Shown piece after piece: positions 29,513 to 63,990 of a stretch of DNA of 64,000 bases; within the stretch, counting starts at the first letter, position 1; the number at the start of each line of letters is the position of its first letter. A program made the translations under genes and the position numbers. Below the pieces are notes generated by a model. That model searched no databases and was not told the origin of the DNA. It worked only from the letters and a program-made list of their open reading frames with translations. Location of the stretch: NCBI GenBank assembly GCA_030832185.1, contig JAURJQ010000016.1, forward strand, positions 124,001 through 188,000, written 5' to 3'. The stretch is from Chitinophagales bacterium. GTDB lineage: Bacteria; Bacteroidota; Bacteroidia; Chitinophagales; JADJOU01.

Positions 29513-30460
29513 TTGAACAATATTTCCTCATTTATACTGACCAGTAAATTGAAAGAATACGCTAAAAGTGTTGGATTTCAAGATGTTGGCATTTCTAAAG
29601 CTATTACTTTAGAAAAGGAAGCAAAAGACTTAGAACGCTGGTTAAAAATTGGTTATCAAGGTGAAATGAGTTATATGGAACGAAATTTTGACTTGCGAAT
29701 TGACCCAAGAAAACTCCATGAGAATACAAAAAGTATTATCAGTTTATCCTATAATTACTTTAAGGAAGAAATTCAAGAAAATGACCCTGAACAGATTAAG
29801 ATTTCTAAGTATGCCAGAGGTCGAGATTATCACAAGGTGTTGAAAAGAAAATTGAAATTAATCATTGAATGGCTAAAAAATGAACTAGGAGATATCAGTG
29901 CACGAGGATTTGTAGATAGCGCCCCTATCATGGAGAGAGTATGGGCCGAAAAAAGCGGCGTGGGCTGGGTTGGTAAAAATTCGCTTCTTCTCACTAAGGC
30001 CAAAGGCAGCTATTTTTTTCTAGCAGAAATACTCCTCGATGTAGAGCTAGACTATGATAGTCCTGTAAAAAATTATTGTGGTACCTGCACCAAGTGTATC
30101 GATGCCTGTCCTACACAGGCCATCGTAGCGCCTTATGTGGTGGATAGTAAAAAATGCATCTCCTATTTGACTATAGAGTATCGTGGAGAAGCACTGCCAC
30201 AGGACTATACCAGCCATAGTCAAGGCTGGGTCTATGGCTGTGATATATGTCAAGAAGTCTGCCCTATCAATGCTAGAGCGAAACAACACAAAGAGCCAGA
30301 GTTTAATGATAAAGAAATTTTCTCCGATATGAGAAGAAGTATCTGGGAAGAAATCACGGAAGACAATTTCAATGAAGTATTTCACGATAGCCCCATCAAG
30401 CGCACAGGATATAAGGGGCTGATGCGGAATTTAGAATTTAGTAAACAAGTTAAAAGCTAA
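29513..30460 (+). CDS. queG: Epoxyqueuosine reductase QueG (TTG start)
   Basis: 315 aa; 4Fe-4S motifs CGTCTKCIDACPTQAI and CDICQEVCPIN; DPRKLHENTKSIISLSYNY. Confidence 0.9.
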   Translation: MNNISSFILTSKLKEYAKSVGFQDVGISKAITLEKEAKDLERWLKIGYQGEMSYMERNFDLRIDPRKLHENTKSIISLSYNYFKEEIQENDPEQIKISKYARGRDYHKVLKRKLKLIIEWLKNELGDISARGFVDSAPIMERVWAEKSGVGWVGKNSLLLTKAKGSYFFLAEILLDVELDYDSPVKNYCGTCTKCIDACPTQAIVAPYVVDSKKCISYLTIEYRGEALPQDYTSHSQGWVYGCDICQEVCPINARAKQHKEPEFNDKEIFSDMRRSIWEEITEDNFNEVFHDSPIKRTGYKGLMRNLEFSKQVKS

Positions 30461-30477
30461 AAGTTTTAAATGTTTAG
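30443..30477 (-). repeat. Degenerate heptanucleotide tract over the queG stop codon
   Basis: Plus strand ...AACAAG TTAAAAG CTAAAAG TTTTAAA TGTTTAG; the queG TAA is at 30458-30460. Confidence 0.6.
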
Positions 30478-30515
30478 TTTTGCTAATTGATTCTCGCCAT
30501 GCATCAATAAAATTT

Positions 30516-42619: not shown

Positions 42620-44284
42620 TTATTTTATCCTCACCCTTTTCAGGTCTAGTGTATTCAATACATTAGGACTAAGACCTTCAATATTGGGCTGCACGAGTCG
42701 AATGGTTTGATCATAAAATAAGGGAACGATAGGAGATTCTTCTACAAGGATCTCTTCGAGTTGTCGATAATAATTTCTTCGAGTACTCGGATTCATTTCA
42801 GATATTAATTTTTCATAGAGCATATCATATTTCGCATTTGAAAAACGGGTATAGTTCGGTGGGGAGCCATTTTTAGAATAAAAACAAGCTAAGAAGTTTT
42901 CCGCATCGGGATAGTCCGCCATCCATGAACGACGAAAAAAATCTAATTGCCCAGCCGCTGCCAGTTGCATCATCATATCCGCGGGATGAAGTTTGATCTC
43001 TACCTTAAAACCAGCAGAACTTAATTGATGGGCTAGGAGCTCTGCCATTTCTACAAAGTTATTATTAATATGAAGTTCTAATGTAGGTTTAGCTTTATCC
43101 GAATGTCCTTCTTCGGTTAATAGACGCTTTGCTTTTTTAGGCTGATAACTCAATCCTTGAAAACTGCTGTCATAATTGGGCATGGCAGAAGGCACAAACC
43201 CTTTATTGGCCGGCAGAACTAGATTGTATTTTAGATACTGAGCTAATTCATTTCTATCAATACTGTAATTGATTGCTTGGCGCAATTTTTTACTTATCAT
43301 TATTGAGTGTGGATTTAGCATATCTTCTCGAACCAGAATGGCCATATACTCTGTATTGAGAAATGGCTTTTTGTATAGCTGCACTTTTTTATTCCAATTT
43401 TCATTGAGTTGACCATTTCGATCGAATACCTGCTGAATAATGCTCTGATCTAGTCCTGTGATAAAACTCAATTCTCTTTTTTCAAATGAAAATAATTCTG
43501 TTTTTTTGTTTTGATTAAACGTGATTTTGACATAGTCTAGATATGGGAGAGTCTTCCCTTCGCTATCTCGTATATGATAGTGCGGATTCTTTTTCAAGAA
43601 TAATACTTCAGCATCTTCCCAGAACTTAAATGCAAAAGCTCCCGTTCCTACTGGATTTTTTCTAAACGTTTTTCCATAATAGTCTACTGCTTCTTTCGGA
43701 ACGATAGCGCAATATGGCATAGATAATATTTGTAGAAATTGTGCATTCGGTTGACGTAATCGAATCATAATATGAAATGAATCGATGATCTGGAATGGAG
43801 AAAGACTATCTAATTTATTTCTCAGGACCCAAGCACCAGGTGATGCTGTTTTAGGATTTATCAATCGAAGAAAAGAATAGGCGACATCATAGGCATTGAA
43901 TGATCGAGTGCTATCTGTATTTTTAAAACAGGAATTCTTGTGAAAATAGACATCTTTTTTTAATTTGAAATGATAGTTTAGTTGATTCGCTTCTACCCAT
44001 GAGCTATCCGCTAATAAGGACTTCAGTTCTGCATTCGAGTCCAATATAAACAAGCCTTCGTAGATATGACTGCATGCCCACATCGTCGCTAAATCTTTAG
44101 AGAAAGCAGGGTCTAGGCTATTTAATTCTACTACTTGGTTGTATTTGAAGGTTTTTGTGTTTGTTTTTGAGTCTAAGCTACAAGAGACAAGTTTCAGGAT
44201 ACAAGCTGCAAGTATTGCATACTTTACCAGTCTAAAGTTAGGAGTAGGTAGTATATACAATTTAAAGTAGAATTGGGGTTTCAT
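42620..44284 (-). CDS. Family 5 extracellular solute-binding lipoprotein (OppA/DppA-like)
   Basis: Lipobox LVSC; LNSLDPAFSKDLATMWACSHIYEGLF; YFHKNSCF..TRSFNAYDVAYSFLRLINP; NPVGTGAFAF. Confidence 0.88.
   Translation of the reverse strand: MKPQFYFKLYILPTPNFRLVKYAILAACILKLVSCSLDSKTNTKTFKYNQVVELNSLDPAFSKDLATMWACSHIYEGLFILDSNAELKSLLADSSWVEANQLNYHFKLKKDVYFHKNSCFKNTDSTRSFNAYDVAYSFLRLINPKTASPGAWVLRNKLDSLSPFQIIDSFHIMIRLRQPNAQFLQILSMPYCAIVPKEAVDYYGKTFRKNPVGTGAFAFKFWEDAEVLFLKKNPHYHIRDSEGKTLPYLDYVKITFNQNKKTELFSFEKRELSFITGLDQSIIQQVFDRNGQLNENWNKKVQLYKKPFLNTEYMAILVREDMLNPHSIMISKKLRQAINYSIDRNELAQYLKYNLVLPANKGFVPSAMPNYDSSFQGLSYQPKKAKRLLTEEGHSDKAKPTLELHINNNFVEMAELLAHQLSSAGFKVEIKLHPADMMMQLAAAGQLDFFRRSWMADYPDAENFLACFYSKNGSPPNYTRFSNAKYDMLYEKLISEMNPSTRRNYYRQLEEILVEESPIVPLFYDQTIRLVQPNIEGLSPNVLNTLDLKRVRIK
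44171..44251. repeat. Two heptanucleotide tracts inside the 5' coding end of the solute-binding lipoprotein
   Basis: Plus strand GTCTAAG CTACAAG AGACAAG TTTCAGG ATACAAG CTGCAAG (44171-44212) and TTACCAG TCTAAAG TTAGGAG TAGGTAG (44224-44251). Confidence 0.7.
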
Positions 44285-44286
44285 AA

Positions 44287-44321
44287 CTATTAACTTGAAA
44301 CTCGCAACTTGTTACTTAATA
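44287..44321. repeat. Heptanucleotide tract over the ABC-2 permease stop codon
   Basis: Plus strand CTATTAA CTTGAAA CTCGCAA CTTGTTA CTTAATA, five consecutive 7-mers; permease stop at 44312-44314. Confidence 0.75.
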
Positions 44322-45625
44322 AATATCCACTGTATCATTTCCTTCCAGCTTACTTTTTTTCCATAAAGCAATATGCCTGTCTTGTATATTCTAGAAGCTA
44401 AGAAAATAAAGAAGACCATAGTCAATAGCATGATAGCCATAGACACTAAAAGCTGCCAGAGAGGGACTCCTTCAGGGATACCAAATACGACGCGACTCAT
44501 CATGACTACAGGTGAGGTAAATGGAATCATACTAGCGATAACGGCTTCCGTGCAGTTGGGGTTATTGACTGATTTGCTCAGAAAGATAAAGGATAAAAAT
44601 ATAGGCATCATGATGGGCATCATGAGGGATTGAACATCCTGGGGGTCATCGCCAACAGAAGCTCCTACTGCTGCAAATAAAGAAGAGTAAAGGAAAAAAC
44701 CACTTATGAAGTAAAATATAAATAAGCCAAATATAGGGATATAATCTATAGACTGCAACCCTTGCATGGCATGGAGAAACTCTGGATTGCTAGCTATAGA
44801 GGCGGCGGCGCTCATTGGCATGTCCGCAGGTAACGACTTTAATTCATGAATACCAAAAACTATTCCAATAGCTAGATTAATGATGAGAATGAATGATCCC
44901 CAGACGCTGAGTTGAAGAAAACTAACCATTCCTATGCCTATAATTTTTCCAAGAAGTAATTCAAATGGACGGACGCTACTGATTATGATTTCAACGATCC
45001 GGTTAGTTTTCTCTTCCATGACTCCTCGCATGACTTGCGCGCCATAAATAGTCAGTATGACATACATCATAATACCGAGCCCAAAACTCAAAGCATAGGC
45101 TATACCTTCTTTCAATTCATTTTCTTCTCCCCCTGATATAGATCTATATACTAGCTTCACAGGGCTTTTGATTTCTTCTATCTTTTTGATATCGATATCA
45201 ATACGCTCAAAACGATTAGTCTCTATGATGTTTTGTAGTTTGGCTTCCAGTTTATTTTTAGTCAGCATACCTAGCTTGGTATAGGTCAGTATCTCAATTC
45301 TTCCAAAAGAAATGCTATCTGCATGACTTGGGACTATCAGTATCGCATCTATTTTATCCTCTTCCTCTATATCCTCTCGACTTGCTATGACTTTGTCGAG
45401 TGATTTGAATACGAAGTTATCTTCATTATTCAATTTTGGAAAAATAGATTGAGAACTATCAATAACGCCTATGCGATGCGTATCGGTATCGGTGGAAGTA
45501 AAAAAGAAGATCGTTCCATAAAATAGAACAATACCTATGGGTAATAATAAAGTAGATATTAGGAAAGTCTTATTTCGAATGCGAATAGAAAAATCGCGGT
45601 AGGCAATGAGAAAGATTTTTTTCAT
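44312..45625 (-). CDS. ABC-2 type transporter permease (NatB-like)
   Basis: N-terminal FLIAYRDFSIRIRNKTFLISTLLLPIG; VMRGVMEEKTNRIVEIIISSVRPFELLLGKIIG; multiple transmembrane helices. Confidence 0.88.
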   Translation of the reverse strand: MKKIFLIAYRDFSIRIRNKTFLISTLLLPIGIVLFYGTIFFFTSTDTDTHRIGVIDSSQSIFPKLNNEDNFVFKSLDKVIASREDIEEEDKIDAILIVPSHADSISFGRIEILTYTKLGMLTKNKLEAKLQNIIETNRFERIDIDIKKIEEIKSPVKLVYRSISGGEENELKEGIAYALSFGLGIMMYVILTIYGAQVMRGVMEEKTNRIVEIIISSVRPFELLLGKIIGIGMVSFLQLSVWGSFILIINLAIGIVFGIHELKSLPADMPMSAAASIASNPEFLHAMQGLQSIDYIPIFGLFIFYFISGFFLYSSLFAAVGASVGDDPQDVQSLMMPIMMPIFLSFIFLSKSVNNPNCTEAVIASMIPFTSPVVMMSRVVFGIPEGVPLWQLLVSMAIMLLTMVFFIFLASRIYKTGILLYGKKVSWKEMIQWIFIK

Positions 45626-46590: not shown

Positions 46591-46662
46591 ACCCTCAACC
46601 CCTAAACCCTCAACGTTAAGATTTCCTCTTTATACTTTAAACTTTTCACTTTATACTAAATG
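46591..46662. repeat. Short-period repeat tracts at the 3' end of the mutA-like gene
   Basis: ACCCTCAAC direct repeat (46591-46599, 46606-46614), then CTTTATA CTTTAAA CTTTTCA CTTTATA CTAAATG (46628-46662); the gene's stop is at 46651-46653. Confidence 0.7.
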
Positions 46663-47604
46663 GCTATATATCTCCCTCGCCATCTGTTCGCTATAGTTTT
46701 CTATGAAATAACTTCCGCTGCTCACGTCCTGGACGATATGCAAATAGGCTTCTTCCTGCATGAGATGAAAAATATTTCTAGCTATGCGCTGACTAAATTC
46801 TGAGTCCACTTCATTGTCATGAGGTTTGATCCATAGACCTTCGCAGCCACCAATCATAGCTGCCATAGCCTCAGTAGTTAGTTTTAGGATATTATTATCC
46901 TTGTTTTCGACTAGCTTATCTTTCAGGCCGGTCTCACCAATGATAACATATTCAGGAGAATACCCTTCTAGTTTGGTATGCTGAAATAAAATGGTCTTAA
47001 AAGCACGTATTTTAGCAATGTCTCTAAAGTAGTCTCCAGACATCTCTAAGTGAATAAAGGCTTTTTTTCCATTCAAACTCTGAATGAGCTTAGCCGACTC
47101 TGTAACAAACTGATCGTCAGAAATGCAATATACTTGGGCAGATAAGGCTGTATGACTCCAAGATAGTGGGTGTGGATATTTCTGGAGAAATTCTGAGATA
47201 AATCTCTCGGTCACTTCACTGAGATTTAGAAACTCGGTATGAATATAATCTAGCCTTATATCAGTAAACAAGTCAGATAATTGGGTTAAATTCCAATTTA
47301 AATGACTGAAATTCAATATGATTCCGTTTTGGCCTTGCTCCAAGGATTTAATAAGCGCTTGATTGGATGTAGAAATAGCGTTCAAATCAGGATTTGTCAT
47401 TTGGAAAACGACTCTATAATCTAACGAAAAGGGAATACTGACTTGTTTTTCGGAACTAAGGTATATTGGATCTATCTTGAACCCTTCGGGTGCTTGTATC
47501 GTCAACTGCTCTAACGGGATATCCTTCAGCTCCCTTTGTATGAGATTCTGGACTTCTCTTATATTCGGTTTAGAAAATGAAATAGACATACTACAAATGT
47601 ACAT
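46651..47604 (-). CDS. Methylmalonyl-CoA mutase small (beta) subunit-like protein, short form
   Basis: IQRELKDIPLEQLTIQAPEGFKIDPIYLS; C-terminal QDVSSGSYFIENYSEQMAREIY; only 317 aa, no B12-binding DxHxxG motif. True start probably MSISFSKPN. Confidence 0.65.
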   Translation of the reverse strand: MYICSMSISFSKPNIREVQNLIQRELKDIPLEQLTIQAPEGFKIDPIYLSSEKQVSIPFSLDYRVVFQMTNPDLNAISTSNQALIKSLEQGQNGIILNFSHLNWNLTQLSDLFTDIRLDYIHTEFLNLSEVTERFISEFLQKYPHPLSWSHTALSAQVYCISDDQFVTESAKLIQSLNGKKAFIHLEMSGDYFRDIAKIRAFKTILFQHTKLEGYSPEYVIIGETGLKDKLVENKDNNILKLTTEAMAAMIGGCEGLWIKPHDNEVDSEFSQRIARNIFHLMQEEAYLHIVQDVSSGSYFIENYSEQMAREIYSHLV

Positions 47605-47835
47605 AAAATTTATCTAGGTCAAATTAAAAACAGAGATCCTAGATACAGTGTCACAGAGACTAGCTTATTTGATAAATTAAAATAAAGGAGACGGTCAGCT
47701 GGGATAGATTTTGCCAAAAATAATGATATCGCTGTTTCGCCTTTTTTTAGGACTATATAGCATATGTTTATTAATAAATTCCATATCATCTAATAAACCT
47801 TCAAATTTATTTTAAAGAATTAAAAATCAATAGTC

Positions 47836-61488: not shown

Positions 61489-62178
61489 ATGGAGGCAATA
61501 GATCATTGGTACGCTGATTTTAAATATAATTGGAAGAAATTTCTCTCCAAGCGAAGCAACTTTATTGAGTTGTTTTTCTGTGTTATTTACTTCTTATTTG
61601 TTTCCTTTCTTTTCAAAAAGTATCTCGTGGTCTATGAGACCATTCCTGGGATACAGCTCTATGATATCTTGTTAGAATATTTTAAACCAGCCGATGTATC
61701 GGTTTATATCTTTGTCTTATTATATACGATTATTTTTTATAATTATTTATACTTATTGGCATATCCTAGAATGTTGGTTTGTTTCTTTATTTTCTATGCT
61801 ACCTGTTTATTCATTCGGTTTATCCTTTTGACTTTTATCAATTTAGAGCCACCGTTAATGTATCAAGAATTTTCTGATCCCATATTATCATCCAGTACCT
61901 ATGAGGGTATAAAAATTACAAAAGACTTATTTTTTAGTGGGCATATGGTAACTGCATTTTGTAGTTATTTCGCTATGCCTAATCGTACCTTAAAGATAGT
62001 ATTCCTTCTAGGAAGCATTGCGCTAGCTATTTTATTGATTATTCAGCACGTCCATTACACTATAGATATTCTAGGGGCATATGTAGCTGTGTTTTTGATA
62101 TACAGAGTTTACTACGAAAAAATATATAATCATTCTAAGTTAACGTATCAATATTCAAAAGAAATAACTAATTACTGA
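61489..62178 (+). CDS. Sphingomyelin-synthase-like PAP2_C membrane protein
   Basis: Polytopic 229 aa; LFFSGHMVTAFCSYFAMPNRTL...IIQHVHYTIDILGAYVAVFLIYRVYY carries the SGH...HYTxD catalytic pattern of the SMS/PAP2_C family. Confidence 0.7.
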   Translation: MEAIDHWYADFKYNWKKFLSKRSNFIELFFCVIYFLFVSFLFKKYLVVYETIPGIQLYDILLEYFKPADVSVYIFVLLYTIIFYNYLYLLAYPRMLVCFFIFYATCLFIRFILLTFINLEPPLMYQEFSDPILSSSTYEGIKITKDLFFSGHMVTAFCSYFAMPNRTLKIVFLLGSIALAILLIIQHVHYTIDILGAYVAVFLIYRVYYEKIYNHSKLTYQYSKEITNY

Positions 62179-63806
62179 TGAGCATCGAAGAAAATAGGAA
62201 TATAGATGAAATGAAACTGAAAGTTTCGCAATGGAAAAGACTGCGATCGACCATTCATCTTGGTGGTGGCCAAAAGGCGATTGATAAGCAACATGAGCAA
62301 GGAAAATTGACTGCTAGAGAGCGTATAGCCTTATTGCTCGATAAAAACACAGATACTATTGAAATTGCTGAATTTGCAGGCTATGAAATGTACGAAGATG
62401 TAGGAGGATGTCCGTCTGGAGGCGTAGTGGTTGTTATGGGATACGTATCTCGCAGGCTCGTCATCATCGTAGCCAATGATGCTACGGTAAAGGCTGGCGC
62501 TTGGTTTCCAATTACTGCTAAGAAAAACCTACGTGCGCAGGAGATAGCTATGGAGAATAAAATTCCTATTATCTATCTGGTAGATAGTGCTGGGGTCTTT
62601 CTTCCTATGCAGGATGAGATTTTTCCGGATAAAGAACACTTCGGCAGAATGTTTCGAAACAATGCGAAAATGAGTGCCATGGGTATCCCTCAGATAGCGG
62701 CAGTGATGGGAAGCTGCGTAGCAGGAGGTGCCTATTTACCCATAATGAGCGATGAATCTCTGATAGTAGATAAGACGGGAAGTATATTTCTGGCTGGCTC
62801 ATACCTAGTGAAAGCGGCTATTGGAGAAGATATCGACAATGAAACCCTAGGTGGAGCTACTACTCACTGCGAGATCAGTGGCGTTACGGATTATAAAATG
62901 GAAAATGACCAGGCTTGTATAGAGAAAATACGAAGTCTAGTAGATAAGTTAGGTCATAGAGCCCAAACTGGTTTTGATCGTATAGAATCTCAACCTGCTT
63001 CTGGAGACGAGGATGCTATTTATAAATTCGTATCCGAAGATAACTCAAAGCCCTATGATACACAAGAACTCCTCAAAACTATCGTCGATAAAGGAGAAAT
63101 AGATGAATATAAAGCTCTCTATGGTCAGTCTATAGTATGCGCTTATGCACGTATAGATGGCTGGGCTGTAGGCATAGTAGCCAATCAGCGCAAAGTGGTC
63201 AAGAGCAAGAAAGGGGAGATGCAATTCGGTGGTGTCATTTACAGCGATAGTGCGGATAAGGCTGCTCGATTTATCATGAACTGTAATCAAAAAAGAATCC
63301 CACTGGTTTTCCTTCAAGATGTGACTGGATTTATGGTAGGGTCGAGAAGCGAACACGGCGGTATTATTAAGGATGGCGCTAAATTGGTGAACGCCATGGC
63401 GAATTCTATTGTACCGAAATTTACTATCATCATAGGAAATAGCTATGGAGCAGGAAACTATGCCATGTGCGGCAAAGCCTATGATCCGCGACTTATTTAT
63501 TCATGGCCTACAGGCAAAATGGCTGTAATGGGAGGTTCTCAAGCAGCCAATACCCTTATGCAAATCCAAGTAGCTGCGCTGAAGAAAAAAGGAGAGGAAA
63601 TAGATGAAGAAAAAAAGCAAGAAATGCTTAAAAAAGTGACCGATCAATATCTAAAAACTACAACCCCTTACTACGCTGCAGCCAGATTATGGACAGATGG
63701 CATCATAGATCCTGCAGACACCCGTAAAGTTATTTCCATGGGCATAGAAGCAGCCAATCATGCACCAATTCCAGATCAATATATTTTAGGTGCTATTCAA
63801 ACATAG
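62178..63806 (+). CDS. Acyl-CoA carboxylase carboxyltransferase (beta) subunit
   Basis: LTARERIALLLD; ENKIPIIYLVDSAGVFLPMQDEIFPDKEHFGRMFRNNAKMSAMGIPQIAAVMGSCVAGGAYLPIMSDE; NSYGAGNYAMCGKAYDPRLIYSWP; methylcrotonyl-CoA carboxylase-like. Confidence 0.92.
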   Translation: MSIEENRNIDEMKLKVSQWKRLRSTIHLGGGQKAIDKQHEQGKLTARERIALLLDKNTDTIEIAEFAGYEMYEDVGGCPSGGVVVVMGYVSRRLVIIVANDATVKAGAWFPITAKKNLRAQEIAMENKIPIIYLVDSAGVFLPMQDEIFPDKEHFGRMFRNNAKMSAMGIPQIAAVMGSCVAGGAYLPIMSDESLIVDKTGSIFLAGSYLVKAAIGEDIDNETLGGATTHCEISGVTDYKMENDQACIEKIRSLVDKLGHRAQTGFDRIESQPASGDEDAIYKFVSEDNSKPYDTQELLKTIVDKGEIDEYKALYGQSIVCAYARIDGWAVGIVANQRKVVKSKKGEMQFGGVIYSDSADKAARFIMNCNQKRIPLVFLQDVTGFMVGSRSEHGGIIKDGAKLVNAMANSIVPKFTIIIGNSYGAGNYAMCGKAYDPRLIYSWPTGKMAVMGGSQAANTLMQIQVAALKKKGEEIDEEKKQEMLKKVTDQYLKTTTPYYAAARLWTDGIIDPADTRKVISMGIEAANHAPIPDQYILGAIQT

Positions 63807-63846
63807 TTTAACTAATAAGTAATAGCGAATAGTTTAAATAAGTAAA
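63804..63846. repeat. Heptanucleotide-like tract starting at the carboxylase stop codon
   Basis: TAG TTTAACTAATAAG TAATAG CGAATAG TTTAAATAAG; irregular 6-7 nt spacing of AG-ending units. Confidence 0.45.
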
Positions 63847-63958
63847 TTTTGAAATTGAGAATGTAAGATAAAGATTGAAAAATGTTCGTATATACAACCA
63901 AATATAATCATACAAGTTATTTTAAAGAATTTATTAGTTCGTATGTCAATGTTTCAAA

Positions 63959-63990
63959 CTTATTACCTATTAACTATTAACTGTCTTGTC
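63959..63990. repeat. Short heptanucleotide tract near the right edge
   Basis: CTTATTAC CTATTAA CTATTAA CTGTCTTGTC. Confidence 0.5.

Follow-up and report, generated by a model that had tools for sequence, protein, structure and literature searches.

Why does an imperfect repeat with a period of seven nucleotides sit on the stop codon of an ABC-2 permease gene? The tract belongs to a window of 64,000 nucleotides, the whole stretch of DNA that was analysed, which lies within contig C10 of a 2.2 Mb genome. The permease gene (ABC2_membrane_3; 44312-45625, minus strand) has its nearest named relatives in "Saprospirales bacterium CE-Oct18-152" (95% at the amino acid level) and in a "Sphingobacteriales" MAG (75%); the remaining ones are mostly from Chitinophagaceae or Chitinophagales, Bacteroidota. 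The five 7-mers that the initial annotation read at 44287-44321, the stop codon among them, are exactly as written. Their lag-7 identity is 18/28, for a mean of 8.0 in shuffled sequences (P<0.0005), and the array delimited by lag-7 scoring (44284-44321, minus strand) reaches a score of 11, segments being retained at 11 or more. Arrays are named G-type when the plus strand has more G than C, and C-type in the reverse case; read on the permease coding strand, the units TATTAAG, TAACAAG, TTGCGAG, TTTCAAG and TTAATAG are G-type. The permease gene and the next one are separated by 27 bp. A weak candidate for an opposite arm (44178-44212, plus strand; units CTACAAG, AGACAAG, TTTCAGG, ATACAAG and CTGCAAG) was read by eye below the detection threshold, in the signal-peptide part of a solute-binding lipoprotein gene (42620-44284, minus strand). 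The permease array pairs with this side at -16.9 kcal/mol, compared to -11.4 kcal/mol when flanks are swapped, which is weak evidence for an arm. At the place of this 7-nt rhythm, the sequence of the relative L009 is unrelated.

The same period had been noted at three other stop codons of the window, and the gene names assigned to all four loci hold. The mutA-like gene (MM_CoA_mutase; 46651-47604, minus strand) ends in an array that covers 46591-46657 of the minus strand (score 16); CTTTATA-type units adjoin the stop and are followed by a second class, CCCTCAA/CCCTAAA. The lag-7 identity over 46628-46662 is 20/28 (shuffle P<0.0005). At queG (QueG; 29513-30460, plus strand) the array (30427-30481, plus strand, score 12) crosses the stop codon and occupies the whole 19-bp gap up to the following gene, with an identity of 17/28 over 30443-30477 (shuffle P=0.004). 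The carboxylase gene (Carboxyl_trans; 62178-63806, plus strand) is a partial case: the weak G-type stretch at its stop (63804-63846, plus strand) does not reach significance by itself (17/36, P=0.08), but the start-side far end of the same spacer carries a clear C-type array (63958-63982, minus strand, score 14; units ACTTATT, ACCTATT, AACTATT and AACT) of opposite polarity. The orthologous gap of the relative G002 has an array there too, with altered units. No long copies of the window arrays occur at other sites of the sampled sequence, and a reading of the arrays as mobile elements was rejected on this ground. Separately, a stretch of about 40 nt surrounding the mutA-like start (47593-47635) matches several sites of related genomes with 82-91% identity, the sampled sequence giving a single match of 19 nt; this is possibly a small dispersed element or a conserved leader.

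The period is a property of the genome. In an 807-kb sample, about 36% of the host genome, 31 lag-7 segments are found outside genes, as compared to 4-9 for lags 4-6 and 8-13; lag 14 gives 22. The first 464 kb hold 15 lag-7 segments for 1.7 in dinucleotide shuffles, and the relatives G001, G002, G003 and G024 likewise peak at lag 7. Breadth was assessed in 60 genomes drawn from the class by searching AAGT followed by three free bases, four times over, with one mismatch. This pattern occurs in 39 of the 60 genomes with about 960 matches (summed from the table), vs. 29 matches at a spacing of 6 and about 190, mostly from three genomes, at a spacing of 8; the host genome has 30, 0 and 0, respectively. 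The spacing controls are relied on because the reversed-pattern control, TGAANNN, is itself a heptamer class. The proposal, made from the window, that gene ends carry a dispersed family of degenerate 7-nt repeats is borne out by the excess outside genes over shuffles and other lags and by the polarity bias described below: these short imperfect repeats are real in the host and spread over its phylum. Note that a parallel class of 8-nt arrays (GATGTGAT GATGAGAC; AAATGTGC AAATATGC), likewise G-left and C-right, was found in stretches L201-L220 of G003 and at loci L037, L055, L071, L073 and L078. In G003 the 8-nt arrays are as numerous as the 7-nt ones.

Placement and polarity were counted in 2.66 Mb from five genomes, each read in part, with gene models from a simple ORF caller. 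Arrays are found in 42/755 and 43/759 co-directional gaps and in 14/263 convergent gaps, vs. 3/255 divergent gaps, where 22 would be expected by length (P=1e-7). For gaps of 60-250 bp the counts are 50/446 co-directional, 11/78 convergent and 2/163 divergent, a tenfold deficit of the last at matched length (2/163 vs. 61/524). The arrays are also close to the genes: in gaps of at least 120 bp, 38 of 50 span a gene edge or are no farther than 10 nt from one, for 6.9 expected at random, start-side distances being uncertain because gene starts were set to the leftmost possible position. Some occupy gaps of less than 30 bp between co-directional genes. The statement that the tracts sit on stop codons describes many of them, though not all: among the 67 stop-side arrays, 38 share bases with the stop codon or ORF end and a further 21 are no more than 10 nt away. 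Two C-type arrays, at G002 C23:5739-6099 (L183) and G000 C10:102036-102171 (L094), span from a TAnnTTTG promoter-like motif to the start codon and look like the entire 5' leader, which makes the near absence of arrays from divergent gaps more puzzling.

Stop triplets within the units cycle through all three frames, 7 not being a multiple of 3, and a translation-stop safety role had been named as possible: the arrays would place stops in every frame beyond the gene. Stops within them do exceed dinucleotide shuffles on both strands, but they are only slightly raised, antisense stops as much as sense ones, and three-frame coverage is that of a column-permuted control, in which unit columns are shuffled while period and composition are kept (0.54 vs. 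0.51 at stop edges, P=0.39; 0.37 vs. 0.41 at start edges). The idea is therefore left without support and, as start-side arrays would have no such need, it is hardly credible.

The polarity was initially described as matching the gene being ended. This is correct at stop edges of co-directional gaps when all genes are turned alike (G-type 32:12), but start edges are C-type by the same margin (32:12), and a polarity along the gene is rejected by the overall balance of G-type and C-type arrays on the coding strand (44:44). The direction is therefore outward from gene edges. Over the five genomes, left gap edges are G-type (34:9) and right gap edges C-type (47:19), so that the G-bearing strand, with its A-G-T core, points outward at both sides of the gap (81:28, P=4e-7). 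In terms of genes, the G strand is sense after stops (49:14) and antisense before starts (32:12). The earlier rule is too narrow and must be restated as outward from both gap edges. A general base skew of gaps was rejected as its source, the skew of array-less gaps being 0.00 vs. +0.305 after stops and -0.149 vs. -0.351 before starts. Two arms share one non-divergent gap in 33 cases for 11 expected, and in 27 of these 33 gaps the arms are in convergent orientation (G then C).

Two convergent arms in one gap could be the halves of a hairpin, and the arrays could then be arms of terminators or of mRNA-protecting 3'-end hairpins that are kept for function, the unpaired ones being decayed or special. 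Their link to gaps containing a gene end agrees with this, as do the near-perfect long stems built from 7- or 8-nt units at the permease 3' ends of the Chitinophagales loci L024, L045, L056 and L078. Co-directional gaps with arrays in Chitinophagales loci fold better than other gaps (mean z -2.84 vs. -0.72, P=0.03), and in the third of the swapped-partner tests the half-gaps of these loci are complementary beyond swaps (P=5e-5). Moreover, transcripts start or stop more often within the heptamer repeats of Xanthomonas and Nostoc (Rehm et al. 2015, PMC4692102). Against a general role, RNA folding of array gaps in the host genus and in G024 is no stronger than that of other gaps, convergent gaps fold equally well without arrays, the two arms in G024 are often built from unrelated units, and the co-directional gaps of less than 30 bp mentioned above carry arrays as well. 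The other two forms of the arm-pairing test were null, and pairing of the arms as hairpins was rejected as a general rule; the third test is weak for the host genus, where trimming of the swapped halves may bias it. The hairpin is a state that the arrays can take and does not define them, and retention as terminator or protective hairpins appears unlikely as the explanation for the class.

Comparison of relatives reveals arrays that persist while their letters change. Among 292 orthologous gap pairs, arrays are present in both members of 8 pairs for 0.76 expected (P=2e-8, an optimistic value since orthologous loci are related by descent and not independent). The unit class is common to some of these pairs and different in others. 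In one gap with conserved flanking genes the arms are of GTATTAT type in the host and of AAGTTNC type in the closest relative available, which is about 92% identical in coding DNA. The permease 3' end has 7-nt arrays in 17/80 loci of relatives vs. 29/576 other gene ends (P=6e-6) and 8-nt arrays in 7/80 vs. 9/576; matching for gap length weakens the 7-nt enrichment (11/49 vs. 23/253, P=0.012), and both P values are optimistic for the reason just given. Since arrays recur at equal spots with other letters, it is the 7-letter rhythm, rather than the sequence, that seems to be kept.

How such units arise had been tentatively ascribed to replication slippage. Close relatives differ in a concerted way, with the same change in adjacent units (two GGTCAGT vs. 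two GGGCAGT; units CTATTAA vs. CTAAAAA), and one array of G001 C19 has a 28-nt higher-order repeat; as judged from these sequences, slippage does act on the arrays. A purely mutational account would add only decay, the repeats being tolerated without function where constraint is weak. Besides the concerted changes and the fast turnover, it can draw on the report that in many bacterial genomes no long-unit repeat is more common than the heptamer, for which slippage was proposed as the cause (Mrazek et al. 2007, as cited in PMC4679880). It is at odds with the outward polarity, the deficit in divergent gaps of equal length and the recurrence in orthologous gaps with new units, as well as with the anatomy of the units. 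These are AT-rich with one G in the consensus (e.g., AGTTAAA, AGTATTA) and, aligned on that G, mismatch to their own consensus is 0.14, 0.11 and 0.13 at positions -1, 0 and +1 and up to 0.33 at +3 (chi-square P=1e-18 over six positions; P=1e-9 for A-consensus positions alone), an unevenness that speaks against slippage followed by even decay, which would give a flat profile. Unit similarity also does not fall with the distance between units. Slippage alone accounts for neither the core-and-spacer pattern, the polarity nor the placement, and an origin by slippage and decay without function is quite doubtful, slightly more so than the hairpin explanation.

Outward G strands evoke chromosome ends. 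If telomere-like repeats were added to broken DNA ends that were then rejoined, outward arrays would be left on both sides of the junction. This predicts the observed polarity together with unrelated units on each side, as in G024, and some units resemble TTTAGGG. Flanking gene order is, however, not significantly more broken next to arrays (adjacent in 30/37 vs. 548/613 elsewhere, P=0.17), so that their reading as rearrangement scars was rejected, and the addition of repeats to broken ends gives no reason for their lack in divergent gaps. It is considered very improbable. The minus-strand units TTGAGGG/TTTAGGG at 46591-46615, which resemble plant-type telomere repeats and point away from the gene edge as they would at the end of a chromosome, recur identically in G003 C29:16326-16363; the likeness is probably a coincidence.

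The explanation favoured here, with moderate confidence, is that slippage makes and homogenises the arrays while edge-specific selection or mutational bias keeps and orients them. The permease tract belongs to a class of degenerate tandem arrays, of 7 nt and in some relatives 8 nt, found genome-wide flush against gene edges in gaps with at least one gene end. Each unit combines an A-G-T core, fairly constant on one strand, with a variable spacer, and as the G strand leads outward from every edge, the arrays of two-array gaps are in convergent orientation. Replication slippage of 7 nt, as the main source, would create, extend and homogenise the arrays, and their unit sequences would therefore turn over fast. 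Selection specific for gene edges, on RNA or DNA, or a mutational bias would retain them in particular gaps and set their orientation. Long 3'-end hairpins can form from arms of like unit class, which several Chitinophagaceae show; most arms of the host genus no longer pair strongly.

The initial annotation knew of no equivalent description. Rehm et al. 2015 (PMC4692102) had in fact reported the placement and polarity for the G-rich heptamer repeats GGGAATC and GGGGA(C/T)T of Xanthomonas and Nostoc, which are mostly intergenic, come as convergent pairs and are rare between divergent ORFs, with the G strand sense near stops and antisense near starts; their loci are stable while repeat length and sequence vary. 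The present arrays share the 7-nt tandem organization, the intergenic position, the scarcity in divergent gaps, the G strand sense at stops and antisense at starts, the convergent pairing and the stability of loci under changing repeats, but their units are AT-rich with about one G, strongly degenerate, of many classes per genome and organized as core and spacer. Rehm et al. discuss G-quadruplexes and propose a three-G type (PMC4692102), which the units found here cannot form. With a single G in consensus units such as AGTTAAA and AGTATTA, the arrays are not filed in the quadruplex family, although the placement rules are identical. The rule as such was already described for G-rich heptamers; the AT-rich, changing units are what is new here.

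Other heptamer systems are less similar. The TAACTGA direct repeats of Beggiatoaceae, Cyanobacteria and some Bacteroidetes (MacGregor 2015, PMC4679880) are also intergenic, mostly just upstream of start codons, with some near starts or across stops; related heptamers are rarely repeated, and cold-shock proteins, each binding one heptamer, are discussed in that context. They have one fixed unit, which is absent among the consensus units of the present arrays, whereas the latter have many units and both gene edges. The over-representation of unit length 7 is common to the long simple sequence repeats of Mrazek et al., as described in the citing papers PMC4679880 and PMC4692102; those are near-perfect, and most present arrays are too degenerate to count. 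The STRR repeats of heterocystous cyanobacteria are 7-nt tandem and intergenic, as the present arrays are, but have few fixed C-rich units, none of which was seen among the arrays listed here.

In genome annotation, such arrays can pass for coding ends, promoters or mobile repeats. The preference of bacterial long-unit repeats for 7 nt has so far been put down to slippage or to G-quadruplexes. Quadruplexes cannot explain the shared rule, since AT-rich units have about one G each, and finding the same placement and polarity in such changing units argues against them as its cause. If one sequence-independent, outward rule with a 7-nt register applies to the gene edges of Bacteroidota, Xanthomonas and Nostoc alike, a single general process could lie behind it in place of any motif or G-quadruplex, for instance an end-extension repair activity or a protein that binds nucleic acid with a footprint of 7 nt; this is speculative and rather improbable at present. 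What is argued to be kept is the position at the gene edge and the strand, more than the sequence.
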